From Pseudomonas sp. RSB 5.4 (GTDB lineage: Bacteria; Pseudomonadota; Gammaproteobacteria; Pseudomonadales; Pseudomonadaceae): a stretch of DNA of 64,000 nt. Shown here piece after piece: positions 4,093 through 51,228 of this stretch (positions within the stretch are counted from its first letter, which is position 1; every line of letters begins with the position of its first letter). The notes beneath the pieces were generated by a model. The model worked only from the letters and a program-made list of their open reading frames with translations. It did not search any database and was not told the origin of the DNA. Position numbers and translations under genes: made by a program. Location: contig NZ_CP146986.1 of the NCBI RefSeq assembly GCF_037126175.1, positions 1-64,000 of the forward strand, written 5' to 3'.

Positions 4093-4108
4093 ACTGTCAG
4101 AAATTACA
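4093..4108 (-). promoter_or_regulatory. LuxR-type (CT-N12-AG) box upstream of the 4023 gene
   Basis: In gene sense the site reads CTGTAATTTCTGACAG, flanked as ACCTG...CAGTA and followed by GCCAAC. It lies 70 bp before the ATG at 4023. The same element with the same 3' extension stands before three other Ig-family genes. The rest of the 4024-4492 intergenic region holds a facing copy for the divergent gene (4346-4361) and a single REP-like half palindrome at about 4211-4238. I see nothing else in it. Confidence 0.6.
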
Positions 4109-4345
4109 GGTAGGGAGGTATTTGCGATGAACGGTCGCGGCTCGGGTTTTGCGTGCCTGAAACGACTTCCCCGTAGGCGCTGCCGCAGTCGACTCTGCGG
4201 TGGACCTCAACCTGTGGCGAGGGAGTCTGCTCCCGCTGGACCGCGCGGCGACTTCAACCCCCATTCTGCTTAACCAAAATGCAGCCTCACGCTGAGCTGA
4301 CTGTTCGGGCATTTCCATCGAATTCCCGACAAACGGTAAGCAAAC

Positions 4346-4361
4346 CTAGTATTTCTGACAG
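4346..4361 (+). promoter_or_regulatory. LuxR-type box upstream of the 4493 gene
   Basis: The site reads CTAGTATTTCTGACAG within ACCTAGTATTTCTGACAGTA, on the plus strand. It keeps the CT-N12-AG spacing and the 3' extension AGTAGTCAGC seen in the other copies (AGTAGCCAAC). It lies about 130 bp before the ATG at 4493. The left half-site (CTAG instead of CTGT) is the weakest of the set. Confidence 0.5.
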
Positions 4362-4492
4362 TAGTCAGCTTTTTCCGGCAGGCATTTAATTGGGTGACAA
4401 ACGTTCCACGCCATCGTCAGTCAACGGCCCGTTTATCTTCACGACTGCCCTGCGCGAGAACACTGTCCGCTCAATTGCCGTGGAGCTTCGCA

Positions 4493-6466
4493 ATGGTGCC
4501 CCCAGAAGAGTCGTCGATGGATCCGCAACACGTGCGCGGCGATGACGAAACAAGTCTTGTAGATATTCCAGAACCGATTGTTCCGGATATCCTGAAAGAC
4601 GAAGAGGGTAATGAGAGCCCGGACGGGCTATTACCTCGCGATGTATTGAATCGCGATTTGAAAATCACGATTCCGGCGTGGGATTTCTCGACAGCGCCGG
4701 AATTCGTACAAGACGACGTGCGGGTGGGCTTCAGGCCACGGGGGCTTCCCTTTAATGACGCCACGGCGGGTGTGTTCTCGTTCTATATCCCCATTGATCC
4801 GGGTGACAAGATTGTCTCGGTGCCTCAAAGGGACCTGACATCTGGTGTTTACGACCTGTCGTACAAGCTCGTGATTGGTGGCAACGCAGCGGAATCAGAA
4901 ATAAAAACCATCACCGTCGATAGAGTGCCGCCGGATGACGGCCAGGAACCGGCGATGCTGGAGCTGCTGGATCTTGTGGGCGACATCACCGATGACTATT
5001 TGGACGAGCACGGTCAGGTTCGTTTCAAAGTACGCCTCTATCTGGACGTGAAGGCCCGTGACCGGGCAATTTATTACTGGACGGACACCGGCACGCCACC
5101 GGACTTCGAAACCGAAATCCGCGAGCAGGCGTTCAGTCAGTTTGATATCGATAACGATCAACTCATCATCACCGTCTACGCCGACGAAATTCGCCTGCGC
5201 GGTCATGGGCAGCGATACATCTATTATCGCTTGCGCGACTGGGCCGGAAACCGGGGACCGCGCTCGCGGCCGCTGCCTGTATTCGTCGATCTGACCCCGG
5301 GGGTGCCCGTTCACAAACCTCCGCGCATCCCCCTGTCGGACAGAGGCTTGATCGATCGTCAGCACGCCCGGGAGGGAGCGGTCAACCAAGGAGCGGTGAC
5401 GGTCGAAATCGATGCCTATGACAATCCGTTGAGCGGCGATCAGATACTCCTGGACTGGGATGGCACTGTTCTGCCGCCGCAGGATGTCGACCCGGCTAAC
5501 TTTCCTTGCGTGATCCCTGTGCCGTGGAGTGCGCTCACAGCCAAGGGGCTGGGGCCGGTGAATGCTCGGGTCACTTACCGCGTGCGCACAGGGGGCGTCG
5601 ATAGCAAACCATCAATGGAAACCCTGGTATCGGTGAACCTGACGGTGGCAGGCCAGGATCACGCCGATGCGCCGGCGTTGTTGAACCCCAAGCTTGCCTT
5701 GCTGGAGATCTACGGCGCCAACTCCAAGGTGCTGAACACATTGCTTACCGAAGATTTCGGCGAGGACGCCGACGGCTTCCTGACCTTGTTCGACGCCCCT
5801 GAACGAGGACACACGATCGAAGTTTATTGGGGGAGCATCAGTACGCCCGTGGCGCAATACATCGTCCAGACCGGTGACGTTGCCGGCAAGAGAGTGCCGT
5901 TCAGTATTCCATGGTCGGTCATTGACCAGGACCGGCTGAACCCGGCGTTGCCGGTCCATTACACCACCAGCAATGGCATCAACCAGCAGTTGGCTCCATT
6001 CACGCCCGTCAAGGTGTCGATCATCATTATCGAAGATCTCGAAGAGCCTTCGTTCCCTGACGCTGGCATCAGAGGGACGCTTGACTGCTGTGCGAAACCG
6101 CGTCTCTGGGAGCGGGTGCGCGTGAGGATTGAAGGCAACCCGGCGTTTGACGAGAAGGACATCGTGACGTTGTTCTGGCAGGGATGCGCGGGATCAAATG
6201 GCACCACGCCCATTCCCGGGGCCGCGGAACGGTTCTTGACCATTTTGAGTGCGGATCAGGCAAGAAACGGTTTTGAAGTGCATGTGACCGATTACGAAAG
6301 GTTGATAGCGCCGATGGAAAACCAGGGTTCGGCGTTATGTCATTACACCTTGAAAAAGTTTACGGGTGGGCAGGGTATTTCAAAAAAAGAGTTCGTGATT
6401 ATCAATAGAACCATGCCCAGTGGTGCAGTGTGCTCACCCACTAATGAAACCTGTACGGAACCGTAA
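4493..6466 (+). CDS. Ig-like modular protein, 657 aa, function unknown
   Basis: Paralogue of the neighbouring Ig-module proteins. The ATG at 4493 is chosen because GGAGC lies 8 nt upstream; an upstream GTG at 4394 would add 33 residues with no family resemblance and no ribosome site. The protein starts with a short acidic segment, then several modules of about 100-130 residues with the family's 'GD.I.L.WDG' type strands and proline-rich linkers. The C-terminal 130 residues contain paired cysteines (LDCC..., FWQGC, final VCSPTNETC) and align with the end of the 6624-8579 protein, also cysteine-bearing. No signal peptide, membrane segment or catalytic motif is visible. It is followed by its paralogue 157 bp downstream. 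A structural or binding role at the cell surface is only inferred from the fold. Confidence 0.8.
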   Translation: MVPPEESSMDPQHVRGDDETSLVDIPEPIVPDILKDEEGNESPDGLLPRDVLNRDLKITIPAWDFSTAPEFVQDDVRVGFRPRGLPFNDATAGVFSFYIPIDPGDKIVSVPQRDLTSGVYDLSYKLVIGGNAAESEIKTITVDRVPPDDGQEPAMLELLDLVGDITDDYLDEHGQVRFKVRLYLDVKARDRAIYYWTDTGTPPDFETEIREQAFSQFDIDNDQLIITVYADEIRLRGHGQRYIYYRLRDWAGNRGPRSRPLPVFVDLTPGVPVHKPPRIPLSDRGLIDRQHAREGAVNQGAVTVEIDAYDNPLSGDQILLDWDGTVLPPQDVDPANFPCVIPVPWSALTAKGLGPVNARVTYRVRTGGVDSKPSMETLVSVNLTVAGQDHADAPALLNPKLALLEIYGANSKVLNTLLTEDFGEDADGFLTLFDAPERGHTIEVYWGSISTPVAQYIVQTGDVAGKRVPFSIPWSVIDQDRLNPALPVHYTTSNGINQQLAPFTPVKVSIIIIEDLEEPSFPDAGIRGTLDCCAKPRLWERVRVRIEGNPAFDEKDIVTLFWQGCAGSNGTTPIPGAAERFLTILSADQARNGFEVHVTDYERLIAPMENQGSALCHYTLKKFTGGQGISKKEFVIINRTMPSGAVCSPTNETCTEP

Positions 6467-6623
6467 CGGGTAATTGATTCAGTAAAGTGCATTAGCCGGT
6501 TTTAGTCAGGACAGTCACGAGTGTTTATTCGGGGCTGACAGAGAGTGTTGTGCCCGTGTTTCGGGCGTTAGTTGTTTGACAAAATCCCGGGCAGATAAAG
6601 CCCGTTTCTGAAGGAGCTGAAAA

Positions 6624-8810: not shown

Positions 8811-11111
8811 ATGAACAAAAACCATGTTTCGCTGCAAAAAAATGCTGCGGCAGGACTCTTTAAAATGCTGGTCGTGCTGCCAGCATTTTTTTTTACCAGT
8901 GGGCATTCTTTTGCCGCCGTTATCGTCGATAACGGCAATACGCTGGATATCGATGCAAGCACACCGCTGAGCGACTATCTGGTACGCAACGCAAGTGTGC
9001 TGAACATCGCGGGGGCCACCACCCAGAGTCTGTCTGTCACGTCCGGATCAACGTTGAATATCAACGGCGCAACGGTCAATGCCGTCGGTGCGCGGGAGGG
9101 TATCCGCATAACCAACAGCACGGGAGATCTCACTCGCGCCATCGTGACCAGCGACTTTATGGGGCTGGCGGTCAATCGGTCTACCGGCTCGACCCTGGGC
9201 TCCACGGTCACTGCAACCGACAGTCAATTCAAGGGTGGGGAAATCGGTGCTCAGATCACCGGCTTGAGCACGCTCACGCTCATCAATAGTCAGGTGACGG
9301 GTACAGGGGCTGACAGTACCGGCCTGAGCATATTGGGGGGAGATGTACGCGCCTCCGCAAACACTGTTATCAGCGGCGACAAGACCGGGGTGGCGATGGG
9401 CAGGGATCCCTCGGGCCTGGGCAACAATTCACTGCGGCTCGACAACTCCAGTGTGGAAGGCCGCACCGGTGATGCGATTCTTGTGGACAGGGGCATCAAT
9501 GCCACCCTTGAGGTGTTGAACCAGTCCTCCCTGACGGGGGGCAACGGCAACGTGCTGACGGTTCAGGGCGCTTCCACCGCGGGCATGTCTGTCAGCGACA
9601 GCACGCTGCAAGGCAACGTCAACGTCATCGGCAACAGTACCGCCAATCTCACTTTCGATCAGGGCAACCTGAAGGGCGACGTGCTGGTCGAAAACGGTTC
9701 GACCGCCAACGTCACTCTGCAGAACAACTCGCAACTGACCGGCCGTCTCGACAATGTCAACGGCGTGACCGTCAACAGCGGTTCGAGCTGGACCCTGACC
9801 GGTAATGACAAGGTCGGAACACTCGCCATGAATGGCGGGACGGTGCGCTTTGTTGCGCAGGGTGTGCCGGATACGTTCTACGAGTTGAACGTCGGCACGC
9901 TGGCCGGCTCGCCGGATGGTTCCAGTACGTTCGAAATGAAGGGTAATTTCGCCACCGGTCAAAACGACTTCCTCAATGTCACGGGCGAAGCCAGCGGGCA
10001 ATTCGGATTGCTGGTGGCCGCTTCCGGTCTGGACGCGACGAACCCGCAACAGTTGACCCTGGTGCGCACCGCCGCCGGCGACGCGCAATTTGCCCTGAGA
10101 GGCGGGCATGTCGATCTGGGTACCTGGTCGTATGACCTCGCTCGGCGAGAAGTGGGGGAGGGCGGTACGGAATGGTTTCTCGACCCGACCACCAAGACCA
10201 TCAGCCCCGGGGCGAAATCGGTACTGGCGCTGTTTAACGCGCCGGTGACGCTGTTGTATGCCGAGGCGGCAACATTGCGCAGCCGCATGGGCGAGTTGCG
10301 TTTCAATGGGGGTGACACCGGCCTGTGGATGCGCACCTACGGCAACAAGTACAACATCAACGCCGCTTCCGGCGTGGGTTATCAGCAGACCCAGCAAGGG
10401 CTTTCTCTGGGGGCGGATACGCACCTGGGTGACAGTCTGTGGGTGGCCGGGATCATGGGTGGCCACAGCCATACCAACCTGGACGTCGCACAGGGAACTT
10501 CGGGTACGGTAGACAGCTACTATCTGGGCCCATACGTGACCTGGATGAACAAGCAGAGCGGTTACTACTTTGATGCGCTGCTCAAGTTCAACCGCTTTCA
10601 GAACGATACGAAAGTCGGCATGAGCGATGGCACGCGGGCCAAGGGCAGTTATGACAACTCCGGCATAAGCGCTTCGGCGGAGTTCGGGCGCCAGATCACC
10701 TTGGGCAACGGCTACTATATGGAGCCGTACGGCAAAGTGTCGACTGCGCTGATTCGTGGGCGCAGCTTTGACCTGGACAATGACATGCAGGCTGACGGTG
10801 ATCGCAGCCGCTCGGTGCTGGGGGAGGCGGGAACCACTGTGGGCCGCAACTTCAACATGGGCAATGGCATGGTCGCCCAGCCTTATGTGCGCGTTGCGGT
10901 GCAGCACGAGTTCATCAATAACAACCGCGTGACGGTCAACGCTGATAATCAGTTCAACAACGACTTGTCTGGCACCCGTGGTGTACTGGGAGCAGGCGTT
11001 GCAGTGGCATTGACCAAGGATCTGCAGGTGTATGCCGGTTACGACTACAGCCATGGCAAGTACATCGAGAAGCCGTATGACTTGAATGTCGGAGCGCGCT
11101 GGACCTGGTAA
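8811..11111 (+). CDS. Autotransporter (type Va), pertactin-like passenger plus beta-barrel, 766 aa
   Basis: The ATG at 8811 has AGGAAG upstream. Residues 1 to about 36 form a long signal peptide (charged start, FKMLVVLPAFFF core, HSFA-A cleavage). Residues 37 to about 350 are repetitive, rich in N, S, T and G ('LTGGNGNVLTVQG', 'STANLTFDQGNLKGDVLVE'), as in beta-helical passengers. About 350-460 resembles the pertactin-type domain ('LAGSPDGSSTFEMKGNFA'). The last 280 residues form the translocator barrel ('GLWMRTYGNKYN', 'GLSLGADTHLGDSLWVAGIMGGHS'), ending in the aromatic residue of 'ARWTW'. It should export its own passenger to the cell surface. It is the only protein among the Ig-family genes with an obvious export route, and a hairpin follows it. 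No protease or lipase motif was seen in the passenger, so an adhesin-like role is most likely. Confidence 0.92.
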   Translation: MNKNHVSLQKNAAAGLFKMLVVLPAFFFTSGHSFAAVIVDNGNTLDIDASTPLSDYLVRNASVLNIAGATTQSLSVTSGSTLNINGATVNAVGAREGIRITNSTGDLTRAIVTSDFMGLAVNRSTGSTLGSTVTATDSQFKGGEIGAQITGLSTLTLINSQVTGTGADSTGLSILGGDVRASANTVISGDKTGVAMGRDPSGLGNNSLRLDNSSVEGRTGDAILVDRGINATLEVLNQSSLTGGNGNVLTVQGASTAGMSVSDSTLQGNVNVIGNSTANLTFDQGNLKGDVLVENGSTANVTLQNNSQLTGRLDNVNGVTVNSGSSWTLTGNDKVGTLAMNGGTVRFVAQGVPDTFYELNVGTLAGSPDGSSTFEMKGNFATGQNDFLNVTGEASGQFGLLVAASGLDATNPQQLTLVRTAAGDAQFALRGGHVDLGTWSYDLARREVGEGGTEWFLDPTTKTISPGAKSVLALFNAPVTLLYAEAATLRSRMGELRFNGGDTGLWMRTYGNKYNINAASGVGYQQTQQGLSLGADTHLGDSLWVAGIMGGHSHTNLDVAQGTSGTVDSYYLGPYVTWMNKQSGYYFDALLKFNRFQNDTKVGMSDGTRAKGSYDNSGISASAEFGRQITLGNGYYMEPYGKVSTALIRGRSFDLDNDMQADGDRSRSVLGEAGTTVGRNFNMGNGMVAQPYVRVAVQHEFINNNRVTVNADNQFNNDLSGTRGVLGAGVAVALTKDLQVYAGYDYSHGKYIEKPYDLNVGARWTW

Positions 11112-11226: not shown

Positions 11227-12720
11227 TCAGGTGAATCGCAACACCTTGATTTCCTGATGCCCGGACTCATGCGTGCCCCGCCAGTGCGGCCCGTCACGGG
11301 AAACGCGGTAGAACAGATTCAGTGCACCGTTCTCTAGCACCCGCAGATGTTTTCCCGGCACGTACAAGGTCACGAGATGATTTTCCACGTCCTGCGGGCT
11401 GACGATGTGCCGAGCCTCATACAAGTAGGGAATGCCATTGGCCTTGGTGCCCAGCCAGGCCATGTCGACGATATCGTCCGTGGTCATGCCCGGGTACTGA
11501 ATGTTCACGGTGGCCGATGTGATATCGGCGCTCACCGTATTGCCCGCGGCTTCGCTCAAGACCGGCGCTGGGATCCGGCCTTCCACGCTGGCGAGTTCGT
11601 GCCTGGAGGGGAGCGCAGAGCCGTCGTCCTTTTTGTAGCGCACATACGATACGTCTGCGGTTCCCATGGCAATCGCCCGAACCTGCGCATTCGGAATCTG
11701 AAACATGAGGATGCTGGGGACGCTTTCCACCCTCTGGGATTGTCGGTTGGGCAACGGGGCACCGGTGGGTGGTGTGCCTACCCAGGTCATGGTGACGGTG
11801 TCACCCACCTGGAAATCGCTGGTGGAGGCGCGAACATGCACGTTGACATCGCGATTGTTCAATTTGTCGAGATCAATGATGCCGTTGACTGACTCCTGGA
11901 TAATCGGCTCATCCAGCTGCCGGATTCCGGACATGACTTTGACTGTAGTCCTCAGCGACCACTTCTCGGAGTGGTTGAATAGCTCGTCATGGATCCCGTA
12001 CTGCACCACCTGCGCGTTGCCGTCGCCACCGGCCACGATATCGTCCTGGTGTGCGGTGATCACGATAGGTGCCTTGCCGGCGGCCTCATCGGCGCTGACG
12101 GTATGCGGTGGCAACAACGCATTGCCCCATTGCACCTGGATAACGTCGCGCACGGCGATGTTCGGGTAGGGAGGAATAACCATCGGCACACCCTTGGCTG
12201 CCCAAACCGCATCCACACCGTTAACGATGACGTCGCGCGGCAGCTGCACGATGTGCAATTTTGAATGTCCGGGCAAATGGGGCTCATCGTCTTTGCCGCC
12301 CGGCAGATCCAGCTTCACCAGTATTCGCAAGGGCGTGGCGGGCTCGTCGGGGCTGGTGCTGCCTGCGCGGGTCAGTATGTAGTAGACCTCGTCGGCCCAG
12401 CCGGGAAGGATGTTCGTCACAGGCAGGAAGAAAAACACCGGTTGGTTGCTGCCGTCTTCGTCATCCTGCAGCACCCGGGTAAAGATCTTGTGGTCCTTGC
12501 CCCAATAGATATCGAGCGTGTCACCTTTGCGCATGGGTTCGGCGTAGGCATCGACGGCGCAGAACAAACCGTCGGGAAACTGGTAGTAGGTTTTGCAGTT
12601 GATACCGCCGTCCCCATCGACGATCGGTTCTATCATGGCCGAAATCCGCAAGGGACGCAGTTTCAGCCCCGGAATTTCAGTCTGCAAGCGTGGAAACAGG
12701 AAGGAGTGAAAGTGCGTCAT
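11227..12720 (-). CDS. Ig-like modular protein, 497 aa, function unknown
   Basis: The shortest complete protein with the same N-terminal architecture as 17211-21215: an N-terminal module ('GGINCKTYYQFPDGLFCAVDAYAEPMRKGDTLDIYWG'-type, quoted in part), a second module with 'LVKLDLPGGKDDE' and 'GHSKLHIVQLP' (paralogue 'YVKLELPAGQDID', 'SHSNLFMYIPP'), then modules beginning 'LDEPIIQESVNG' and 'IPAPVLSEAAGN'. It ends after four or five modules with no extra C-terminal domain. The ATG at 12720 has GAGG about 9 nt upstream. A LuxR-type box lies 82 bp before the start. It lies directly downstream of the halovibrin genes but has its own box, so it is probably a separate transcription unit. No signal peptide is visible. 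Confidence 0.82.
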   Translation of the reverse strand: MTHFHSFLFPRLQTEIPGLKLRPLRISAMIEPIVDGDGGINCKTYYQFPDGLFCAVDAYAEPMRKGDTLDIYWGKDHKIFTRVLQDDEDGSNQPVFFFLPVTNILPGWADEVYYILTRAGSTSPDEPATPLRILVKLDLPGGKDDEPHLPGHSKLHIVQLPRDVIVNGVDAVWAAKGVPMVIPPYPNIAVRDVIQVQWGNALLPPHTVSADEAAGKAPIVITAHQDDIVAGGDGNAQVVQYGIHDELFNHSEKWSLRTTVKVMSGIRQLDEPIIQESVNGIIDLDKLNNRDVNVHVRASTSDFQVGDTVTMTWVGTPPTGAPLPNRQSQRVESVPSILMFQIPNAQVRAIAMGTADVSYVRYKKDDGSALPSRHELASVEGRIPAPVLSEAAGNTVSADITSATVNIQYPGMTTDDIVDMAWLGTKANGIPYLYEARHIVSPQDVENHLVTLYVPGKHLRVLENGALNLFYRVSRDGPHWRGTHESGHQEIKVLRFT

Positions 12721-12801: not shown

Positions 12802-12817
12802 CTGTCAGAAATAACAG
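12802..12817 (-). promoter_or_regulatory. LuxR-type box upstream of the 12720 gene
   Basis: In gene sense: CTGTTATTTCTGACAG inside ACCTGTTATTTCTGACAGTA, followed by GGCAAC. The 20-bp core is identical to the copy before the 21215 gene. The surrounding 165-bp gap (12721-12885) holds nothing else recognised. Confidence 0.65.
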
Positions 12818-12885: not shown

Positions 12886-14487
12886 TCAGAGATCCGGCGT
12901 GATCAACATGCTCGCGGGCCTACCGGGGGCGTTCTGGTCGGCGGGGTTGTATCGGAAGACCTGGTCAGCCGTCGCTTCGAGGTCAACCAGAACAATGGGC
13001 AAGAAGCGTCCGGTGCTCCGGAAATAGTCGCGTTGGGCGAACTGCGCCTGTGCCAGCCCGTTTGCGTTGTAGTGCGCCTTGAGGCTGTAATAGAACGCTT
13101 CCAACGGGATTTTCAGCGGAATGTCCTGCGGCCAGGTCTGGATCATCACCTCGTTCCAGCCATCGCCATTGGGCGCTGTCGGGCGCACATCGATGTTCAG
13201 TTGGAACTGCGCCGGGTCGATGTTGAACGCACAACTGCTGCGTGGTGCGCTGGCATATCGAGTTGCCCAAGCCTGCACAGTGGTGATACCCAGCTCATCA
13301 CACAGGTCGCCGCGTATGCGGCAGGTGTCCTGAGGGCGGCTGGTGCCGCCATCGAAGGGATAGGCACACATCACGTTCAAGGGGTGGGCCGCCGGGGCAA
13401 AGCTTTCACGAATCAGAAAGCCTTGTGAGTAAACCGGCTTGGTCAGTCCCGCATCCCGGCGTAGATAGGTGAAGGAAACACCGCCGTTGCCCACCGACCC
13501 AGGGCTGGGATTCCACATGTGAAAAGCTGCAGAAGCCTGGGATCCACGCAACAGAACGCCATTGCAGAAGTAAGCGGTTTTACCGGCCTGACAGGTCGGT
13601 GATATGTGTTCATACCGCGCATTCAACCGCGAAGCCACCTGATAGCCGATGTACAACTGATCCTGCTGATCGAAGCCGAACACCGCACCGGGTGGCTGGT
13701 GCAGATCCATGCGCAGGACCGGCAACCAGTCCCCGGTGGCATTGAAATAATCACGCTGATCCTTCTGTGCGCCGAGCAATGCGCCGGTTTGCGTGGTGTC
13801 GTAAAACAGCGCTTGTATCGGCATCTGCTTGGGGGCAGTGGCGTCCCAGTTTTTGATCTGCACCAGGTTGGGTTTCACAGCCCAGGTGCCACCGAGGCGC
13901 TGGTGGGCGATGAGGCTGGCCTTGAACAGCACTGGCACCTGGCTGCTGAGCGAGCATTGCTTGTCAGGTTGCAGGTTTTGTTGCTGGAAGTGCGCGATCC
14001 AGCCCTGCGCATCGCTGACGCCTTGGGCGGCGCACGAAGAGGGATCCGCTTCGGCGTGGGCGGCTGCCATTGCACCACAGCCGAAGGCGGGGCGGGTACC
14101 CGTCATGACAAACGCAAACGGATAGGCGCACAACACTTCGAGCGCTTTGCCCTGGCCGATGGCGGTGAAGCTGTCGCTGAACACCACGCCGCTTTTCTGG
14201 GCCAGCGCCTGGGTGCCGAGGTCGGCGCGCAGGTAACTGAAACTTTCCGCGCCGAGCTGGGTAGAGGTTGCGTCGTGCTGCCAGAACTCGCCGGCCTCGG
14301 GGCTGCCGCGCACCAATACGCCACTGCAGAAGTACGCCGGGTGATCGCCCACGCATGCGGCCGTGGTGTTCTGGTAGCGGGTGTTGAGCAGTTTGGCCAC
14401 TTCCGGGCCGGTAGCGGCGACGGCCAGGCTGTTGAGCAGCCAAAGCGCGAGCAGCAGTTGTTTGAGTAACGAAATCGGAGTGTTCAT
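12886..14487 (-). CDS. Halovibrin (HvnA)-like secreted protein, 533 aa
   Basis: Resembles the HvnA/halovibrin family; the Vibrio fischeri founder was reported as a secreted NAD-glycohydrolase, but the activity of Pseudomonas members is not established to my knowledge. A Sec signal peptide covers about residues 1-25 (LLKQLLLALWLLNSLAVA-A). The mature protein has two homologous halves, starting 'LLNTRYQNTTAACVGDHPAY' and 'RLNARYEHISPTCQAGKTAY'. Each carries 'YFC.GVL.RG', a 'F.YLR.D' stretch, 'LCAYPF/MCAYPF' and a 'P.EAFYY' or 'P.QALFYD' strand, with paired cysteines typical of an exported disulfide-bonded protein. The start overlaps the stop of the upstream paralogue by 4 nt (ATGA), so translation is coupled. 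Its N-terminal half is nearly identical in DNA to that of the paralogue. Confidence 0.7.
   Translation of the reverse strand: MNTPISLLKQLLLALWLLNSLAVAATGPEVAKLLNTRYQNTTAACVGDHPAYFCSGVLVRGSPEAGEFWQHDATSTQLGAESFSYLRADLGTQALAQKSGVVFSDSFTAIGQGKALEVLCAYPFAFVMTGTRPAFGCGAMAAAHAEADPSSCAAQGVSDAQGWIAHFQQQNLQPDKQCSLSSQVPVLFKASLIAHQRLGGTWAVKPNLVQIKNWDATAPKQMPIQALFYDTTQTGALLGAQKDQRDYFNATGDWLPVLRMDLHQPPGAVFGFDQQDQLYIGYQVASRLNARYEHISPTCQAGKTAYFCNGVLLRGSQASAAFHMWNPSPGSVGNGGVSFTYLRRDAGLTKPVYSQGFLIRESFAPAAHPLNVMCAYPFDGGTSRPQDTCRIRGDLCDELGITTVQAWATRYASAPRSSCAFNIDPAQFQLNIDVRPTAPNGDGWNEVMIQTWPQDIPLKIPLEAFYYSLKAHYNANGLAQAQFAQRDYFRSTGRFLPIVLVDLEATADQVFRYNPADQNAPGRPASMLITPDL
14077..14416 (-). repeat. Near-identical segment shared by the two HvnA-like genes (copy 1; copy 2 at 15735-16074)
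   Basis: The two stretches, offset by 1658 bp, differ at only a few positions over about 340 bp (seen near 14123, 14129 and 14269), including silent sites. Flanking coding sequence is much more diverged. This points to recent gene conversion or a recent partial duplication. Confidence 0.8.
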
Positions 14488-16133
14488 TTGTAATACCCCA
14501 AGGTCGCCGCGTGTCGTGTGGGGGAATGTGAGGCGTTGAGCGGTTTCTGCAGGAGATTCTGGGAAACACTTTGATCGGCGGGGTCGTAGGTGAATTCATG
14601 ACCTGTTTCTGCCGCGAGATTCAAATGCACAACGGGCAGAAAACGACCGGTCTGCTGAAAGAAGTCCTGCTGAAAAAAAGCCGCATTGGCCTTTCCCGAG
14701 GCCGCGATATAGAAAAATGCCTCAAGGGGAAGTCGATCTCCAAAGTCTTGGGGCCACGAAGCAATGACGACCTCGTTGTGCTGGGTCTGGTCGGTTGCAT
14801 TCAAAAAAGAGCGCGCCACGACGCTCTGCTCAAACTGCTCCGTACTGCTGTTGAAGCTGCAACCGGTACTCTTGTGAGAGAGCGTATAAAACAGTGCTAC
14901 CCATTGCTGGCCGCTGTTGATGCCCTGTTCGTCGCACGGCCTGCTGCGCACCGGGTCGAGACTATGCTCGTTACAACCCGCTGATCTGAAGTCGGTTCCA
15001 CCATCAAAGGGGAACGCGCAGCGCAGCGTGAGAGGGTAAGCAGCAGGGGCCGCCAGTTCCTTCATGATCAAGCCCTGGTTCTTGCCATAGACGAGCCTGG
15101 ATGCATAAACATCGGAACGCAGGTAGGAGAACGCCACTGCGTTTCGCAAGGTGGAGCCCGGGCTGGGATTCCACGCATGAAACGCTGGCGATGCATCGGT
15201 GATACGTATCAACACGCCATTGCAGTTATACGCAGCGGTATCTCCTTGACAAGCGGGGGACGTATCGGCATACCGCGCATTCAATCGCGAAGCCACCTGA
15301 TACCCGATGTACAACTGATCCTGCTGGTTGAAACCGAATACCGCGCCGGAGGGCTGCTGCAGGTTCATGCGCAGGATCGGCAGCCAGTCCCCGGTGGCGG
15401 CGAAGTAGTCACGCTGATCCTTTTGCGCACCCAGCAATGAGCCGGTTTGAAGCACATCATAAAACAGCGCTTGTATCGGCATCTGTTTCGGCGCGGCGGC
15501 GTCCCAGTTTTTGATCTGCAGCAGGTTTGGCCGGGCTGCCCAGGTAGCGTCGAGGCCTTCATGGGCAGTGAGGCTGGCCTTGAACAGGGTCGGTGCATGA
15601 CTGCTGAGCGAACATTGTCTGTCCGGTTGCAGGCCTTGTTGCTGGAAGTGCGCCATCCAGCTCGGAGCATCCGTGACACCTTGCGCGGCGCAGGAGGAAG
15701 GATCCGGCTCGGCGCCTTTGGTTGAGTTCGAGCCACAGCCGAAGGCGGGGCGGGTACCCGTCATGACAAACGCAAACGGATAGGCGCATAACACGTCGAG
15801 CGCTTTGCCCTGGCCGATGGCGGTGAAGCTGTCGCTGAACACCACGCCGCTTTTCTGGGCCAGCGCCTGGGTGCCGAGGTCGGCGCGCAGGTAACTGAAA
15901 CTTTCCGCGCCGAGCTGGGTAGAGGTAGCGTCGTGCTGCCAGAACTCGCCGGCCTCGGGGCTGCCGCGCACCAATACGCCACTGCAGAAGTACGCCGGGT
16001 GATCGCCCACGCATGCGGCCGTGGTGTTCTGGTAGCGGGTGTTGAGCAGTTTGGCCACTTCCGGGCCGGTGGCGGCCACAGCCAGGTTGTTGAACAGCCA
16101 GAGGGCGAGCATCAACACTTTGTTCAATGCCAT
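14484..16133 (-). CDS. Halovibrin (HvnA)-like secreted protein, 549 aa, tandem paralogue
   Basis: Same architecture as the next gene downstream: signal peptide (LMLALWLFNNLAVA-A) and two HvnA-like halves, the second starting 'RLNARYADTSPACQGDTAAY' with 'RPCDEQGINSGQQWVALF' and 'VIASWPQDFGDRLPLEAFFY'. The first half is almost the same protein as in 12886-14487, while the second halves differ much more, so the pair diverged C-terminally or was homogenised N-terminally. It starts 47 bp after the stop of the Ig/Big2 gene and runs into the next gene with a 4-nt overlap. This supports one operon from 21215 to 12886. Extracellular location is inferred from the signal peptide and cysteines. Confidence 0.7.
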   Translation of the reverse strand: MALNKVLMLALWLFNNLAVAATGPEVAKLLNTRYQNTTAACVGDHPAYFCSGVLVRGSPEAGEFWQHDATSTQLGAESFSYLRADLGTQALAQKSGVVFSDSFTAIGQGKALDVLCAYPFAFVMTGTRPAFGCGSNSTKGAEPDPSSCAAQGVTDAPSWMAHFQQQGLQPDRQCSLSSHAPTLFKASLTAHEGLDATWAARPNLLQIKNWDAAAPKQMPIQALFYDVLQTGSLLGAQKDQRDYFAATGDWLPILRMNLQQPSGAVFGFNQQDQLYIGYQVASRLNARYADTSPACQGDTAAYNCNGVLIRITDASPAFHAWNPSPGSTLRNAVAFSYLRSDVYASRLVYGKNQGLIMKELAAPAAYPLTLRCAFPFDGGTDFRSAGCNEHSLDPVRSRPCDEQGINSGQQWVALFYTLSHKSTGCSFNSSTEQFEQSVVARSFLNATDQTQHNEVVIASWPQDFGDRLPLEAFFYIAASGKANAAFFQQDFFQQTGRFLPVVHLNLAAETGHEFTYDPADQSVSQNLLQKPLNASHSPTRHAATLGYYK

Positions 16134-17210: not shown

Positions 17211-20200
17211 TTATCGGGGCGTGTCGAGCAGTGCCCTGCGACTGGCTTTCAATGCCAGCCCCCGTGTTGCAGGCGTGGCCAGATACGAGAATTTGCCCCG
17301 GAGAAGTTCCTGCACCGCGCTGCTGTCACCGCCGCCGGCCGCAACGCCCCAGGTGACAACACGACCGTCAGACGTCAGCGCGGTGAAACTGGTGGTGTTG
17401 CTGTAAAGCGCAACCACGTTGGTCAATTGATCGACGACAGGCGCGGTATCGCCGCCGACCGTCTGATCGCCCCACGCGACTACCGTGCCGTTCCTGCACA
17501 ACGCAGCGAAAGCCTGGGATGACCCACATACCTGGACAATGTCATCCAGTATGGCGATTTCGCTTGGTACGGCGCCGCCCTCGGCGGGCCTGCCCCATGC
17601 CACCACATGCCCGTTGCTGCGCCGGGCGGCAAAGGCGCGCCAGGTCGAGCTGACTTCGACGATGTCGTCCAGCCCTCCGATCAGGGAGTCGATTGTGCCG
17701 CCGTACTCGGCTGTTCCCCAGGCCACGACATGTCCGGAGGCACGCCGAGCGGCGAACGCCTGGGCATTGGCGCAGCTCAATTCGATGATGTCGTCGAGGA
17801 GGGCGATGGCTTCTGGTACAGCGCCGCCATAACCTGCATGCCCCCAACCGACAATCCGCCCGTTGGCCCGATGCGCAGCGAAGGCTCCATTGCTGCCGAT
17901 CAATGTCTTGATATCGTCGAACCCGGCGATGTCGCCCGGCACGGTTCCACCATTGGCTGCCAACCCCCAGGCCACCACTTCGCCGGTGGTCCGTAATGCG
18001 GCAAACGCCTGACCGGCAGACACAACATGCTCGATATCGTCGTGTTGACCGATGTCGTCCGGCACGGAGCCACCATTGTCAGCGTCGCCCCACGCCACCA
18101 CTTGCCCTGTCAGCTTCACGCCAGCGAAGGCGACGGCGTTACCCACCACTTGTTTGAAACCCAGCGGTGAAACACCGCCCATGCTGCCACCTTCCGTAAC
18201 GGTTCCCCAGACCACCACCGCATTGTTGGCGCGGCGTGCGGCGTAGGCGCTGCGTGTGCAACTCACCTCGACAATGTCGTCCATGGTGATGATAGTGGAG
18301 GGGATTGTTGCTCCATAAGCGCCGTTGCCCCAACCTACGACATCACCCACATTGCGATGCGCGACGTAGGCTGATTGCCCGGTGAGTGTCAGGTCGTTGC
18401 CGTTGCCGAAGATGTTCGCCGGGTTCAGGGTCAATGCGTCGTCCGTGGTGCGCACCTGCAGTGGCAGGTGCGGCCGGGTGTCATACCAGGTACTGGCCGT
18501 CGTCCATTGACTGTCGTCCGGGTATTTCCACTGCGCCTGCAAAGGTTGGCCGGTGGAGGCATTGAACGCACTCAATACATGCGAAGCGCCGGATGACCTG
18601 TAGGTGCTGCGATTGAAGCGAGCGCCCATGACTTTCAGCGCGCCGGAACCAATCACCTTGCGGACATCGTAGACCGTCGGATCAGACGGACCATCAGTAC
18701 CACCCGCCTTGCGGGTAATCGTATAGGTCATGGAAATGCTGTCGTCGACGTTATCGTCAATGAACGTGTGATCCACCTTGATCACCGCCAGTTCTTTATC
18801 TGCCTGATTGGCCAGGACTGTATGGGATTTTCTGAATGTAGTTTTGCCGATCACTACCACATGGATCTCATCATCGGTTCTAAGCGCAGCACTGGCGGCG
18901 ATGACCACTGTTGCGCCGAGAGGAAAAACGTCATTTGGGTTGATCTGGTCCTTTTGCGGGCCGCTGGCTTCCAGGAATGTGGCCACCGGCAATTTCACGC
19001 CAGGCGCCGCTTCCACGCGCAACTCGTAATCGCTGCCAAGGCTTGTGCCGCCTTCGAACAGCTCGACGTAATAACTGAGGGTGACCGTGTGGTTCAGGCT
19101 GTCCAGTACGATCTGCCGAGGAACCGGAAACTCTACCTCCTTGCCCTTGTTGTTACCGCTGATGGGCTTGTCATAGTCCTGATCAACGCTGCCATCAGCG
19201 GTGCGCCAGTTCATGTAGTAGTGATCACCGGCATTCTCCGCACGGTTGGCGGCAATCAACACGGTGGCCTCGACTGGCACGCTGGCCGGGTCGAGCACGT
19301 CATTCACGGCTTCGCGTACTTTTGCCGGCTCCAGAAGTTGTTCCTGTGCCTGGCCCACGGTGAATTTCAAGGGGTTCGAATAGCTGGTCTCGTCCGTGAC
19401 GGAGCGCCAGACGTGGTAGTTGACGGTGATTTTATTGTCGCGGTTCGGTTCGATGTATTGGGCGACGAAGGCGGCGTCCAGGTTGATGACCCAGTCTTGT
19501 TGGGCGGTGACGGCATTGAATGTGCGGGACCTGGTTTCCACACCGGAGATGTCGCCCACCCACTTCCAGTTGGCCTCGTCGTTGGCTACCCATGGCTTCA
19601 CCACAGGCCTGGGGATGGTCAGTTTACTGGTACCGCCGGGCAGTGTGGCCGGGTCGAGGAAGCCGTTCGCCACCCCGAGGACAATGGGAGCGTCCAGCTC
19701 GAATTTCGGTTCACCCACATTGATCAATTTTGTGTGCAGCGACTCCCGTCTGAGGATCTCGTCGCCGTCGGCTATCAGCAGCTCGTACCAACCCTCCAGG
19801 GTTCCGCCGTCAAGGAGCTTGAGGTTGTAGTCAGCGACGGTGATGACGAAACCTTCGGGATTCTCGACTTCATCCTCCTCCGGAATGTGCCACTCCAACT
19901 CAGGCAGGAAGGTGCTGCCGTCCGGGCGTTTACCCAGCAGGAACAGCTCAATGCCCATGCCGTACTCGATGGCCGGATCGAACGGAATGCGGACGTTGAT
20001 GGGTGTCTTCGTGGGATCGATGAAGTCTCCCTCGGCTTCCTCGATGATCGGTGCGGCCAGGCGGTGGGCTGCGCCGGTGACGTGTACAAACTGCCCTTTT
20101 GAGCGTAACGGGTCACTGCTGCCGCTGCGTTCCAGCCGATAGAAGAAACTGACCTGGGTATTGACCAGTTTGCGCACGTCGGCAATGGGCAGCTTGAACT

Positions 20201-21215
20201 CGTAGTTATGCGGGATATTGTCGACGGTCTGGGGCAGGGCGGTGACTTCGACTTTTTCTCCCTCCAGGGTGGTGCCGAGCATGGTCAAGTGAATGATGTC
20301 ATCCATCTCGAAGTCTGGCCGGGTGGCCGTGACATGCACCGTGATGTCGTTATCGCCCTGTTTATCGGCGTCGAGCTTGTTGTTGACGGCCTCCTGAACA
20401 ATCGGTGCGGCCAGCAGGTCGATGCCGGTGGTGACGACGATGCGGGTTTCCTTGCACCAGTCTTCCGATTCATTGCCGACGATGTCGCGCACCTTGAAGG
20501 TGACGGCCAGACCGGAGAGGTCGGTGTCACCAGCTCGTTCAATAGTGGCTTTGGAGACCGTGATTAATATCGGGTTTGCCGCTGGATCGTTGATCTGCGC
20601 CTGGGTCACCGGTGTGGAATACTCAAAAAAGCCACCCCAACTGAGATGAATGACGTCGCCCTCCGCGATGTCCGGGTAAGGCAAGCCGCTGCCGGACTCG
20701 GACCTGATGACAATCGGCACTCCCGCTTCGGCAACGTCTTTGTCCACACCGCCGTTGACGATTTCAGGAGGGATGTACATGAACAGGTTGGAGTGGCTGC
20801 CGGGGTTCGGGTCGATGTCCTGGCCAGCGGGGAGTTCCAGTTTGACGTAGAGGTTGAGAGGGGTGTCCGGACGTTCATCGTTGTGACCGAACTGTTTGAT
20901 TTCGTAGGTGAGTTGGTAAGAACCGGTCCGCAGATGACGGGGAGCCACCCACAAGAGGGTCGGTTGCTTGAGCTCGGCCTCGTCAATGATGGGACGCCCG
21001 TCGACCTCACGGCCATCGAGCAGCAGCTTGACGGTATCTCCGACAGCCTTGTTGGCCCAGACGGGGATCACGACTTGCAGACCGTCATCGGGAAAGTTGA
21101 GCAGCGCCGCCGCCCGGTTGATCCCCCACTGGCCGGAAGGCAGGAGGCGCCCGGGAACCACCGGGTCACGCAGTGCCAAGGGGGCAGGGATTTTCTTCTT
21201 GGGCTTGACGAACAT
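17211..21215 (-). CDS. Large Ig-like modular protein with C-terminal RCC1-like repeats, 1334 aa
   Basis: The ATG at 21215 (MFVKPKKKIPAPLALRD) is preferred over one at 21263: it has GGAG 8 nt upstream and matches the start of the left-edge paralogue. Residues 1 to about 900 are Ig-like modules of roughly 100 residues, opening with motifs such as 'LAAPIVQEAVNNKLD', 'LAAPIIEEAEGDFIDP', 'LDAPIVLGVANGFLDP' and 'LEPAKVREAVNDVLDP', with 'GD.I.L.W.G' strands. From about residue 955 to 1290 lie nine repeats of 41 residues, each with V-V-x-W-G and 'AFAARR.NG', i.e. short RCC1-like propeller blades. Canonical RCC1 repeats are longer (about 51-68). No signal peptide or transmembrane segment is visible, so the export route is unknown. 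It is the first gene of a probable four-gene operon with the Ig/Big2 and HvnA-like genes, behind a LuxR-type box. Confidence 0.85.
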   Translation of the reverse strand: MFVKPKKKIPAPLALRDPVVPGRLLPSGQWGINRAAALLNFPDDGLQVVIPVWANKAVGDTVKLLLDGREVDGRPIIDEAELKQPTLLWVAPRHLRTGSYQLTYEIKQFGHNDERPDTPLNLYVKLELPAGQDIDPNPGSHSNLFMYIPPEIVNGGVDKDVAEAGVPIVIRSESGSGLPYPDIAEGDVIHLSWGGFFEYSTPVTQAQINDPAANPILITVSKATIERAGDTDLSGLAVTFKVRDIVGNESEDWCKETRIVVTTGIDLLAAPIVQEAVNNKLDADKQGDNDITVHVTATRPDFEMDDIIHLTMLGTTLEGEKVEVTALPQTVDNIPHNYEFKLPIADVRKLVNTQVSFFYRLERSGSSDPLRSKGQFVHVTGAAHRLAAPIIEEAEGDFIDPTKTPINVRIPFDPAIEYGMGIELFLLGKRPDGSTFLPELEWHIPEEDEVENPEGFVITVADYNLKLLDGGTLEGWYELLIADGDEILRRESLHTKLINVGEPKFELDAPIVLGVANGFLDPATLPGGTSKLTIPRPVVKPWVANDEANWKWVGDISGVETRSRTFNAVTAQQDWVINLDAAFVAQYIEPNRDNKITVNYHVWRSVTDETSYSNPLKFTVGQAQEQLLEPAKVREAVNDVLDPASVPVEATVLIAANRAENAGDHYYMNWRTADGSVDQDYDKPISGNNKGKEVEFPVPRQIVLDSLNHTVTLSYYVELFEGGTSLGSDYELRVEAAPGVKLPVATFLEASGPQKDQINPNDVFPLGATVVIAASAALRTDDEIHVVVIGKTTFRKSHTVLANQADKELAVIKVDHTFIDDNVDDSISMTYTITRKAGGTDGPSDPTVYDVRKVIGSGALKVMGARFNRSTYRSSGASHVLSAFNASTGQPLQAQWKYPDDSQWTTASTWYDTRPHLPLQVRTTDDALTLNPANIFGNGNDLTLTGQSAYVAHRNVGDVVGWGNGAYGATIPSTIITMDDIVEVSCTRSAYAARRANNAVVVWGTVTEGGSMGGVSPLGFKQVVGNAVAFAGVKLTGQVVAWGDADNGGSVPDDIGQHDDIEHVVSAGQAFAALRTTGEVVAWGLAANGGTVPGDIAGFDDIKTLIGSNGAFAAHRANGRIVGWGHAGYGGAVPEAIALLDDIIELSCANAQAFAARRASGHVVAWGTAEYGGTIDSLIGGLDDIVEVSSTWRAFAARRSNGHVVAWGRPAEGGAVPSEIAILDDIVQVCGSSQAFAALCRNGTVVAWGDQTVGGDTAPVVDQLTNVVALYSNTTSFTALTSDGRVVTWGVAAGGGDSSAVQELLRGKFSYLATPATRGLALKASRRALLDTPR

Positions 21216-21290: not shown

Positions 21291-21306
21291 CTGTCAGAAA
21301 TAACAG
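21291..21306 (-). promoter_or_regulatory. LuxR-type box upstream of the RCC1/HvnA operon
   Basis: In gene sense: CTGTTATTTCTGACAG, with ACCTG before and CAGTAGCCAAC after. It lies 76 bp before the ATG at 21215, close to the 70 and 82 bp spacings at the two other minus-strand paralogues. Confidence 0.65.
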
Positions 21307-48910: not shown

Positions 48911-48973
48911 ATGACCGTTGTAAATAAGCTGAACTCCTGGTGCCTGCGCTGGGGTTTGATCGGGGCTGCCTGA
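48911..48973 (+). CDS. Putative aroP leader peptide, 20 aa, two Trp codons
   Basis: MTVVNKLNSWCLRWGLIGAA, with AGGTGA 5 nt before the ATG. Trp codons are at 48938-48940 and 48950-48952. The bases just after the second Trp codon (GGTTTGAT, 48953-48960) are complementary to ATCAAACC at 49009-49016, shortly before the aroP start, and GCTGC/GCAGC can pair inside this loop. This layout suggests translation-dependent control of an aromatic amino-acid permease. No T-rich terminator is seen, so control of translation start is more likely than classical attenuation. Confidence 0.5.
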   Translation: MTVVNKLNSWCLRWGLIGAA

Positions 48974-49033
48974 AATCGCAACCTTGCAGCAACGTCTACT
49001 GAACATCATCAAACCTTGCGTGAGACCTTTTTC

Positions 49034-50452
49034 ATGAGTGGACAACCCTCGCAATCAGGCGAGCTGAAACGCGGCCTGAAAAATCGCCACATTCAACTGA
49101 TCGCCCTCGGTGGCGCGATCGGTACCGGATTGTTCCTCGGCTCGGCCGGGGTCCTGAAATCCGCCGGCCCGTCGATGATCCTCGGCTACGCCATCTGCGG
49201 CTTCATCGCCTTCATGATCATGCGCCAGCTCGGCGAGATGATCGTCGAAGAGCCGGTGGCCGGTTCCTTCAGTCATTTTGCGCACAAGTACTGGGGCGGC
49301 TTCGCCGGTTTCCTGTCGGGCTGGAACTGCTGGATTCTGTACATTCTGGTGGGCATGTCGGAGCTGACGGCGGTCGGCAAGTACATCCACTACTGGGCGC
49401 CGGACATCCCGACCTGGGTCACCGCCGCTGCATTCTTCGTGCTGATCAATGCGATCAACCTGGCCAACGTCAAGGTCTTCGGTGAAGCCGAATTCTGGTT
49501 CGCGATCATCAAGGTCGTGGCGATCGTCGGCATGATCGCGCTGGGCAGCTACCTGCTGGTCAGTGGCCATGGCGGCCCGCAGGCCTCGGTCAGCAACCTG
49601 TGGTCGCACGGCGGGTTCTTCCCCAACGGCGTCAGCGGTCTGGTGATGGCGATGGCGATCATCATGTTCTCCTTCGGCGGTCTGGAAATGCTCGGTTTCA
49701 CCGCCGCTGAAGCGGACAAGCCGAAAACCGTGATCCCGAAAGCGATCAATCAGGTGATCTACCGCATCCTGATTTTCTACATCGGTGCACTGGTGATCCT
49801 GCTGTCGCTGACTCCATGGGACAGCCTGCTGGCGACCCTCAATGCGTCTGGCGACTCCTACAGCGGCAGCCCGTTCGTGCAGGTGTTCTCGATGCTCGGC
49901 AGCAATACCGCCGCGCACATCCTCAACTTCGTGGTGCTGACCGCGGCACTGTCGGTGTACAACAGCGGCACCTACTGCAACAGCCGCATGCTGCTGGGCA
50001 TGGCCGAGCAGGGCGATGCGCCGAAAGGCCTGGCGAAGATCGACAAGCGCGGCGTGCCGGTGCGTTCGATCCTGGCTTCGGCGGCGGTCACTCTGGTGGC
50101 GGTGTTGCTCAACTACCTGATCCCGCAACAGGCGCTGGAACTGCTGATGTCGCTGGTGGTTGCAACCCTGGTGATCAACTGGGCGATGATCAGTTTCTCG
50201 CACTTCAAGTTCCGCCAGCACATGAACAAGACGCAGCAGACGCCACTGTTCAAGGCGCTGTGGTATCCGTACGGCAACTACGTTTGCCTGGCGTTCGTGG
50301 TGTTCATCCTCGGTGTGATGCTGCTGATCCCGGGCATCCAGATCTCGGTGTACGCGATTCCGGTGTGGGTCGTGTTCATGTGGGTCTGCTACGTGATCAA
50401 GAACAAGCGTGGAGCGCAGCAGGCGCTGCACGCGGCCAGCGCTTCGAAGTAA
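49034..50452 (+). CDS. aroP: Aromatic amino-acid permease AroP-like, 472 aa
   Basis: Proton-coupled APC-family importer for Phe, Tyr and Trp. Twelve hydrophobic helices are visible, opening with the family signature 'RHIQLIALGGAIGTGLFLGS' and 'AGPSMILGYAICGFIAFMIM', then 'GSFSHFAHKYWGGFAGFLSG' and 'AEADKPKTVIPKAINQVIYR'. The start at 49034 (MSGQPSQSGELKRGLKNRHI) is preferred to a TTG at 49016. The phh genes and PhhR in the same window support an aromatic substrate. It has a long leader with a Trp-rich upstream peptide and ends at a strong terminator. Confidence 0.88.
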   Translation: MSGQPSQSGELKRGLKNRHIQLIALGGAIGTGLFLGSAGVLKSAGPSMILGYAICGFIAFMIMRQLGEMIVEEPVAGSFSHFAHKYWGGFAGFLSGWNCWILYILVGMSELTAVGKYIHYWAPDIPTWVTAAAFFVLINAINLANVKVFGEAEFWFAIIKVVAIVGMIALGSYLLVSGHGGPQASVSNLWSHGGFFPNGVSGLVMAMAIIMFSFGGLEMLGFTAAEADKPKTVIPKAINQVIYRILIFYIGALVILLSLTPWDSLLATLNASGDSYSGSPFVQVFSMLGSNTAAHILNFVVLTAALSVYNSGTYCNSRMLLGMAEQGDAPKGLAKIDKRGVPVRSILASAAVTLVAVLLNYLIPQQALELLMSLVVATLVINWAMISFSHFKFRQHMNKTQQTPLFKALWYPYGNYVCLAFVVFILGVMLLIPGIQISVYAIPVWVVFMWVCYVIKNKRGAQQALHAASASK

Positions 50453-50468
50453 GCGCTGACGCAAAAAA

Positions 50469-50500
50469 CGACAAACCCGGCCAATGTGCCGGGTTTGTCG
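50469..50500 (+). terminator. Intrinsic terminator of aroP
   Basis: A perfect 12-bp stem CGACAAACCCGG / CCGGGTTTGTCG with an 8-nt loop, followed by TTT. Confidence 0.9.
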
Positions 50501-50521
50501 TTTCTGGGGTTTACACAATCC

Positions 50522-50613
50522 CTTGTAGGAGTGAGCCTGCTCGCGATAGCGGTGTATCAGTCGACGCATATTTATCTGACTTACCGCTATCGCGAGCAGG
50601 CTCCCTCCTACAG
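50522..50613. repeat. REP-type inverted repeat (TGTAGGAGTGAGCCTGCTCG subtype)
   Basis: Arms of about 31 bp with one mismatch, centred on GGTGTATCAG...CTGACTTACC, between aroP and arfB. Confidence 0.85.
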
Positions 50614-50675
50614 GGGGATCGGAGGTTCGGACAGTTTCGCGGTATCCTGCACCCTCTGAATACGGACGCTTTTCC

Positions 50676-51089
50676 ATGCTGGTGATTTCCAACAACGTGC
50701 ATCTGCCGGATGCCGAGATCGAACTGACGGCCATCCGCGCGCAAGGCGCCGGTGGGCAGAACGTCAACAAGGTCTCCAGTGCCGTGCACCTGCGTTTCGA
50801 CATTCCGGCCTCGTCCTTGCCCGAGTTCTACAAGGAGCGGCTGTTGGCGCTGCGTGACAGTCGCATCACCAGTGATGGCGTGCTGATCATCAAGGCTCAG
50901 CAATACCGCACGCAGGAAGCCAACCGTGCCGATGCGCTGGAGCGTCTGACCGAGCTGATCCTCAGCGCCACCAAGGTCGAAAAGAAGCGCCGCCCGACCA
51001 AGCCGACCCTTGGCTCGAAGAAGCGCCGGCTCGAATCCAAGACCAAGCGTGGCAGCATCAAGGCCGGCCGTGGCAAGGTGGATTTTTGA
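50676..51089 (+). CDS. arfB: Peptidyl-tRNA hydrolase / ribosome-rescue factor ArfB, 137 aa
   Basis: Rescues stalled ribosomes by hydrolysing peptidyl-tRNA in the A site. The catalytic G-G-Q is at residues 26-28 in '[20 protein letters not shown]'. The C-terminal tail is strongly basic ([20 protein letters not shown]), as needed to insert in the mRNA channel. The length of 137-140 is normal (E. coli YaeJ). Transcribed alone. Confidence 0.97.
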
Positions 51090-51212
51090 AGGTTGGCGTC
51101 TTGGAATTATTCCATTTCCTCAGGAGCGGGCATTGTATCCACTACGCACTTCTCAACTAAAATCAATTCCCGGATATTGAACGGCTCTCTTATAACTAAT
51201 CGGTCTACCAGA

Positions 51213-51228
51213 CTGTCACATCTGACAG
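51213..51228 (+). promoter_or_regulatory. LuxR-type box upstream of the beta-propeller gene
   Basis: CTGTCACATCTGACAG: six-base arms are perfect and the CT-N12-AG spacing is kept. Its complement reads ACCTGTCAGATGTGACAGTC, aligning over 20 bp with the sites before the Ig-family genes. It lies 61 bp before the ATG at 51290. Confidence 0.6.

Follow-up and report, generated by a model that had tools for sequence, protein, structure and literature searches.

The first 64,000 nucleotides of contig NZ_CP146986.1 of Pseudomonas sp. RSB 5.4 (assembly GCF_037126175.1; this whole stretch is referred to as the window) carry five palindromic sites, all of them dyads of about 20 bp with CT-N12-AG ends, the form of the las, rhl and lux boxes. 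Their core is CTGTCA-N4-TGACAG, whereas las boxes have CTGCCA-N4-TGGCAG. Four of the sites precede genes for immunoglobulin (Ig)-like repeat proteins and the fifth an unlinked gene for a beta-propeller protein, and the analysis concerns the regulon to which these genes would belong, probably that of an orphan LuxR protein encoded beside fpr, the gene of a ferredoxin-NADP reductase. The sites and genes are, in window coordinates:

4094..4109, minus strand: lux-type box ACCTGTAATTTCTGACAGTAG (34.0 bits), preceding the first Ig-like gene (ATG 4023, minus strand)
4346..4361, plus strand: degenerate lux-type box ACCTAGTATTTCTGACAGTAG (21.4 bits), preceding the Ig-like gene that ends at 6466
4493..6466, plus strand: Ig-like repeat protein, start uncertain (ATG 4493 or 4517)
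11227..12720, minus strand: 497-amino-acid repeat protein, probably made of tandem Ig-like domains
12802..12817, minus strand: lux-type box ACCTGTTATTTCTGACAGTAG (34.0 bits), preceding the Ig-like gene 11227-12720
17211..21215, minus strand: 1334-amino-acid repeat protein with an RCC1 propeller
21291..21306, minus strand: lux-type box with a core identical to the 12802 copy (34.0 bits), preceding the Ig-like/RCC1 gene 17211-21215
51213..51228, plus strand: lux-type box CTGTCACATCTGACAG (24.8 bits on the plus strand, 21.4 on the minus strand), preceding the delta-60 propeller gene
51290..52576, plus strand: delta-60 repeat beta-propeller protein (TIGR02608, 5.9e-25)

Palindromic sites in the window

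The five palindromes are real and lie far above chance. They are matches to CTGTTATTTCTGACAG with at most three mismatches, while shuffled windows held 0.20 such matches on average and none reached five. A weight matrix derived from sites outside the window (46 of 55 sites were used) gave exactly these sites as the five best places of the window and no sixth, the next other place scoring 3.7 bits and the best place in 20 first-order random windows 16.9 bits. An earlier examination of the letters alone (the sequence-only reading) had located four of the sites correctly and the first one off by one, at 4093-4108 instead of 4094-4109. Its description of the sites was otherwise accurate: the two copies that it took to be identical over 20 bp, at 12802 and 21291, are the same over 22 bp, the AGTAGnCAnC flank does follow the box at all four Ig sites, and the distance to the start codon falls within the 61-82 bp that it gave for four of the five, namely 70 bp (4094), 81 bp (12802), 75 bp (21291, to ATG 21215) and 61 bp (51213, to ATG 51290). 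The degenerate 4346 box, which has CTAG where the other copies have CTGT, stands 131 bp before the first likely ATG (4493), outside that range; a GTG at 4394 is disfavoured as the start of this gene because it would be too near the predicted transcription start.

Promoter layout

After removal of near-copies, 67 flank-distinct pairs of site and gene were retained from a total of 81. Their information is concentrated in the box (consensus A-M-CTGTCATTTCTGACAG-TAG, followed by a weaker CA), with a second, weak AT-rich element about 40 bases past the box start. Among the 49 of 58 promoters with an unambiguous direction, a -10-like hexamer is found at offsets of 23, 24 and 25 nt after the core in 16, 12 and 3 cases, respectively, compared with 2, 1 and 0 cases on the opposite side of the box. 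Three such hexamers are present in the window:

4064..4069, minus strand: -10-like hexamer TAAATA, 24 nt past the core of the 4094 box
4385..4390, plus strand: -10-like hexamer TTTAAT, 23 nt past the core of the 4346 box
51252..51257, plus strand: -10-like hexamer TTTACT, 23 nt past the core of the 51213 box

If the hexamer is taken as positions -12 to -7, the box is centred between -43.5 and -44.5, a position typical of class II activators. Relative to these predicted transcription starts the box overlaps the -35 position, which is the layout of an activator-dependent (class II) promoter.

The proposed regulon in the genome and in the genus

The box set ACCTGTCA-N4-TGACAGGT was found across the genome of Pseudomonas sp. 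RSB 5.4 (6.24 Mb, one contig) and across the genus. The sequence-only reading had proposed a genome-wide search for the motif, and this search found it enriched and not randomly spread: CTGTNNNNNNTGACAG, a pattern shared by all window sites but the 4346 one, has 32 strand-hits at 24 places, compared with 6 hits for the reversed pattern. We examined 26 places (22 of the 24 CTGTNNNNNNTGACAG places and four looser ones); an open reading frame (ORF) starts within 260 bp at 20 of them, three lie inside ORFs, and three have no called start, two of which (4097304 and 5578184) do have ORFs in another ORF listing. One of the 20, the site at 2589349, begins 24 nt into an ORF and is likely to be a chance match, as may be some other weak genomic sites. 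Outside the window, the genes preceded by a box include, in genome coordinates:

near 793621, 1026783 and 2002232: boxes before more Ig-like giants
1769848: box before a second delta-60 protein (DUF5122)
3186229 and 3195064: boxes before a Big-domain protein and an SpvB/TcdB-type gene
3563701: box before a small SET-like protein (L047:5120-5635; at the Pfam cut-off)
496690: box before the gene of a receiver-GerE response regulator, behind which lies that of a hybrid kinase with an Hpt domain and two solute-binding stretches
several further places: boxes before small ORFs of no known kind

An 1118-amino-acid protein at locus L045 was first thought to be Tc-like and proved by domain scan to be a Big-domain protein.

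The fully palindromic form CTGTCANNNNTGACAG was counted per strand in six other genomes (designated by G numbers), with 35 hits in G044, 33 in G070, 22 in G037, 10 in G022, and 7 each in G085 and G126; the reversed-pattern control gave 0-1 per strand in the same genomes. Their loci, as far as they were read, have the same kinds of downstream genes, together with RHS-repeat and SpvB genes (L150, L159, L162) and genes for a GspE ATPase and an EF-hand protein. At L171:2793-2874 of G044, a gene for a GspE-type secretion ATPase is preceded by two perfect boxes, at distances of 61 and 127 bp, a hint that the predicted regulon includes an export system in that genome.

This range of targets bears on the idea that the palindrome was merely inherited along with duplicated Ig genes, or was spread as a repeat. 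Such an origin would fit the common flanks at the four Ig sites and the paralogy of several of the Ig genes, but it is already contradicted by the boxes before unrelated genes (response regulator, SpvB-type, RHS-repeat, delta-60, SET-like, GspE, EF-hand, small ORFs) and by the 67 flank-distinct pairs, which keep little beyond the box, a few adjoining letters and a weak -10 element; we give it next to no credence.

The fpr-linked LuxR as candidate regulator

The genome of strain RSB 5.4 has a single match to the Autoind_bind domain, in an orphan LuxR gene at 3699173-3699892 (G000:C1). The sequence-only reading had placed the regulator outside the window, and this candidate gene does lie outside it, on the same contig. 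The product has 240 amino acids (PF03472, 2.7e-25; PF00196, 1.4e-16), and its closest solved relative by sequence is QscR (PDB 3szt). In the alignment to QscR the motifs NYPxEW, Y, IDP, W and HGxRHGWS are kept, which we take to include residues that contact acyl-homoserine lactones (AHL); since the AHL-pocket residues are retained, a foreign AHL would be the first guess for the ligand. The neighbouring gene has ferredoxin-NADP(+) reductase as its best NCBIfam match (2.3e-67, below the model's own cut-off). The protein has the AHL-type two-domain architecture and, from its sequence and setting, is probably a subgroup A (PpoR type) solo. No LuxI was found in the genome, in a search that lacked a positive control, as 14 control genomes gave none either. 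Subgroup A genes have a 23S rRNA methyltransferase gene as their other neighbour, and in G061, a genome devoid of the LuxR gene, the gene beside fpr matches RlmG.

The distribution of box and regulator was scrutinized in 149 Pseudomonas genomes by setting motif counts against the helix class of the fpr-linked LuxR; the number of genomes with at least 13 hits is included, a threshold picked after the counts were known:

xxRTV helix: 80 genomes, median 32 hits, range 10-75; at least 13 hits in 77 of 80
other helix: 30 genomes, median 4.5 hits, range 0-65; at least 13 hits in 5 of 30
no such gene seen at the fpr locus: 13 genomes, median 3 hits, maximum 7; at least 13 hits in 0 of 13
fpr locus uninspected: 26 genomes, median 4 hits, maximum 14; at least 13 hits in 1

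The chance level is a few hits per genome (medians of 1-3 for the reversed pattern), and the xxRTV class differs from the other-helix and gene-absent classes combined with a Mann-Whitney p of about 9e-17, a value that ignores relatedness. The tally includes one other-helix genome whose LuxR gene lies away from fpr (G025, 5 hits), one xxRTV genome with 9% contamination (G051, 28 hits), and one gene-absent genome that shows no more than 604 bp of flank where the gene would lie (G147, 2 hits). In a tree built from 83 fpr genes, seven changes are required for the R label (bootstrap 6-8), and strongly supported branches alone force three; as this is the tree of a single short gene that is itself linked to the trait, the count is indicative. 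Losses of luxR within box-rich parts of the tree (G071/G073/G061 and G092) go with 0-3 hits, and a further loss, in G132 beside the weaker G116/G106, with 4 hits. The sequence-only reading had taken the sites for a quorum-sensing or LuxR-solo regulon, and the comparison supports the second version: box abundance tracks one orphan LuxR and its helix type, with few exceptions. The quorum-sensing version is no more than possible: the LuxI search, which lacked a positive control, found none, and in one clade the ligand-binding half of the regulator is missing.

Helix and box also vary together. In 45 promoters of response-regulator genes (L087-L145), chosen from motif-bearing genomes (13-75 hits), the second half-site is TGTCAG in 11 of the 12 for which helix position 2 of the LuxR is not E, versus 1 of the 33 for which it is, and in two genomes with an SxSTVQ helix the first half-site is CTATCA as well.

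Several observations weigh against assigning the boxes to this LuxR. The 12802 and 21291 boxes, two of the five window sites, have no good -10 hexamer downstream, and no box lies within 400 bp of the luxR start in the 43 loci checked. Three genomes whose LuxR helix has S are rich in boxes (G084, 65 hits; G083, 32; G114, 26), and three xxRTV genomes stay below 13 hits (G086, 10; G116, 11; G066, 11). Putida-type genomes carry luxR with an SQSTV helix and 0-13 hits, showing no box enrichment, so that either the specificity changed there or the regulon was lost. The genomes are related, which leaves few independent events, and the co-variation of helix and box may largely reflect one ancestral change.

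Two other families of operators were considered and rejected by comparison with their familiar consensus forms. The LexA box (CTGT-N8-ACAG), considered because of its shape, was discarded on three grounds: no AT repeat fills the N8 stretch, SOS genes are missing from the targets seen, and the sites track the LuxR gene. The Pho box has the wrong spacing.

A sensor-less form of the regulator

Twelve genomes with 6-27 hits appeared as exceptions, having yielded no full-length fpr-linked LuxR. In all nine of them that were inspected, the fpr locus (L311-L319) holds a LuxR gene reduced to the helix-turn-helix (HTH), with R at the same helix position; the product has 77-87 amino acids in eight genomes and 143 in one, and the two that were scanned match GerE and give no Autoind_bind match. 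The same nine genomes keep 11-27 box hits. The persistence of the DNA-binding half and of the boxes after the sensor has gone is a strong sign, from comparative sequence data, that this HTH has the box as its target.

A second LuxR solo occurs in 12 of the 149 genomes, none of which yielded a full-length fpr-linked LuxR, and adjoins an enolase-phosphatase gene at the locus scanned (L195; TIGR01691). Since PsaR1 has the same neighbour, the clade with the HTH-only gene is probably P. syringae-like. The enolase-phosphatase-linked LuxR had been a candidate regulator of this clade and was dropped once the fpr locus proved to hold the HTH-only gene.

Another DNA-binding protein, inherited together with the fpr-linked LuxR, might bind the box in its place, and the comparative evidence is indeed compatible with any co-distributed gene. 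The lux/las-box form of the site, the promoter layout, the link to helix type and the HTH-only survivors nevertheless point to LuxR with no added assumption, and a co-inherited binder appears rather improbable.

The response regulator as possible target or binder

The response regulator encoded behind the 496690 box (L038:5121-5747; G000:C1:496810-497433) itself contains a LuxR-type HTH. It belongs to a row of genes (L038:3058-8974; 494747-500663 in the same genome) for an EAL-like regulator and a short receiver-like ORF, both identified by eye, the response regulator, and a BvgS-like hybrid kinase, and the response-regulator operon has a perfect box. The regulator and kinase presumably resemble BvgA/BvgS and RocA/RocS, with the same order of a receiver-GerE regulator and a periplasmic-sensor hybrid kinase with Hpt; here the pair is an apparent target of the box. 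This BvgA/RocA-like protein could itself be the binder, the box before its gene then serving autoregulation. In its favour, 28 of the 29 relatives found in one scan have a box core that begins 116-130 bp upstream of the response regulator (the 29th, a 40% identical fragment of a metagenome-assembled genome without a box, was kept as a miss), and a box matching at least 10 of 12 letters precedes all 45 of the chosen response-regulator genes. The wider distribution fits poorly with such a role: in the box-rich genomes G044, G070 and G141 (69-74 hits) the response-regulator homologues examined have no box, and the box-bearing G018 and G022 show just a homologue of the paralogue clade, again boxless. 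The box also precedes three separate response-regulator clades, or one clade with two losses, on a tree in which L098, L099 and L125 were scored as boxless while carrying one-letter or two-letter variants. An orthologous response regulator with a box was not found in every genome where the box is abundant, among 20 candidates scored per genome at a cut-off of 1e-40, a search in which a divergent copy was possibly missed. We consider the response regulator unlikely as the binder; from these patterns it looks like a conserved target.

Proposed mechanism and relation to known systems

A lux-type box regulon of the orphan fpr-linked LuxR is the best explanation of these data, and a probable one. 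The five palindromes would be operators of one regulon, with the LuxR protein most likely binding each box as a dimer. The box would take the place of a -35 element, about 43-44 bp before the predicted transcription start, where bound LuxR would recruit RNA polymerase to the -10 hexamer 23-25 nt further on. The predicted targets comprise the Ig-like giants, propeller proteins, the SpvB/TcdB-type gene, small proteins, and the BvgA/BvgS-like phosphorelay operon, through which the response could be extended. A broader proposal, on which we are evenly divided, makes the fpr-linked LuxR a genus-wide activator of scattered giant Ig-like, propeller, Rhs and Tc-type genes and of the BvgAS-like phosphorelay, in which helix and box co-evolve, and of which the sensing half was deleted in the P. 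syringae-like clade, the DNA-binding half and the regulon being kept to give a sensor-less regulator.

Subgroup A solos adjoin a ferredoxin-NADP reductase gene and are described as the most widespread group of LuxR solos in the P. fluorescens group (PMC8546723). The fpr-linked LuxR resembles solos of the PpoR/Ppu16R type in its place beside fpr, its two domains and the absence of a linked luxI. For Ppu16R, neither targets nor binding of an AHL could be demonstrated (PMC8546723), whereas for the members with the xxRTV helix the present analysis proposes both a box and a regulon. PpoR and PplR are AHL-binding orphan LuxRs of the same kind: a PplR mutant of P. plecoglossicida has 84 changed genes (PMC11543582), and a microarray gene list is given for a PpoR overexpressor of P. 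putida (PMC2703642). The terms 'lux box' and 'binding site' are absent from the main texts of PMC2703642 and PMC11543582. QscR of P. aeruginosa is an orphan LuxR that works through an inverted repeat resembling the sites of AHL receptors, with two direct sites named (PMC4211393); its gene is divergent from PA1897, whereas the LuxR gene described here lies beside fpr. PsaR1 of P. syringae pv. actinidiae is a LuxR solo adjoining an enolase-phosphatase gene (PMC10134790; PsaR1 also PMC3909224), like the second LuxR of the 12 genomes, and is separate from the fpr-linked HTH-only LuxR. Among other solos, SmoR has a palindrome before its operon (PMC4432800), and P. chlororaphis 30-84 is reported to have one AHL-type solo, PcsR1 (PMC7683790).

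A regulon of an orphan LuxR is of a known kind, and for this one no earlier account was found in the open PMC literature, where nothing was found that gives the letters of the box or links a Pseudomonas LuxR solo to such genes. The same literature turned up no earlier account of the sensor-less form or of the link between helix and box, and no search was aimed at those two. With a box and a regulon named, the role of subgroup A becomes directly testable. The regulon would connect a receptor of the eavesdropping type with genes that appear to be directed against insects or competitors. The intact, lost and sensor-less forms offer a natural series in which the evolution of receptor and operator can be studied together.

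Predicted target proteins and other features of the window

The sequence-only reading had called the unlinked gene a beta-propeller gene, correctly as its TIGR02608 match identifies a delta-60 repeat protein. The assignment of the other four genes to an Ig family is weakly backed: it agrees with Ig/FnIII-like structural matches and with a Big_2 match in a neighbour of the Ig-like proteins, and no Pfam Ig domain was matched in the four window proteins scanned. The best structural matches of a low-confidence structure model (pLDDT 53.7) include many strings of Ig/FnIII-like domains, and the model supports no more than a general Ig/FnIII likeness. Big domains are present in some box-linked relatives and absent from others scanned. 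A Mega-BLAST comparison of the largest Ig gene with plasmids gave no match.

In the first Ig-like gene, the frame of ATG 4023 differs from the long open frame, and the switch occurs at a G-rich run soon after this ATG (3926-3940, minus strand: G7, TGT, G5), which may be a phase-variable tract, the mark of a broken gene or a sequencing error. Amid the Ig genes, 12886-14487 and 14484-16133 (both on the minus strand) encode adjacent, closely similar proteins with signal-peptide-like starts and without a box of their own, the first of which has no NCBIfam match. A barrel-type autotransporter (TIGR01414), without a box upstream, is encoded within the Ig cluster at 8811-11111 on the plus strand.

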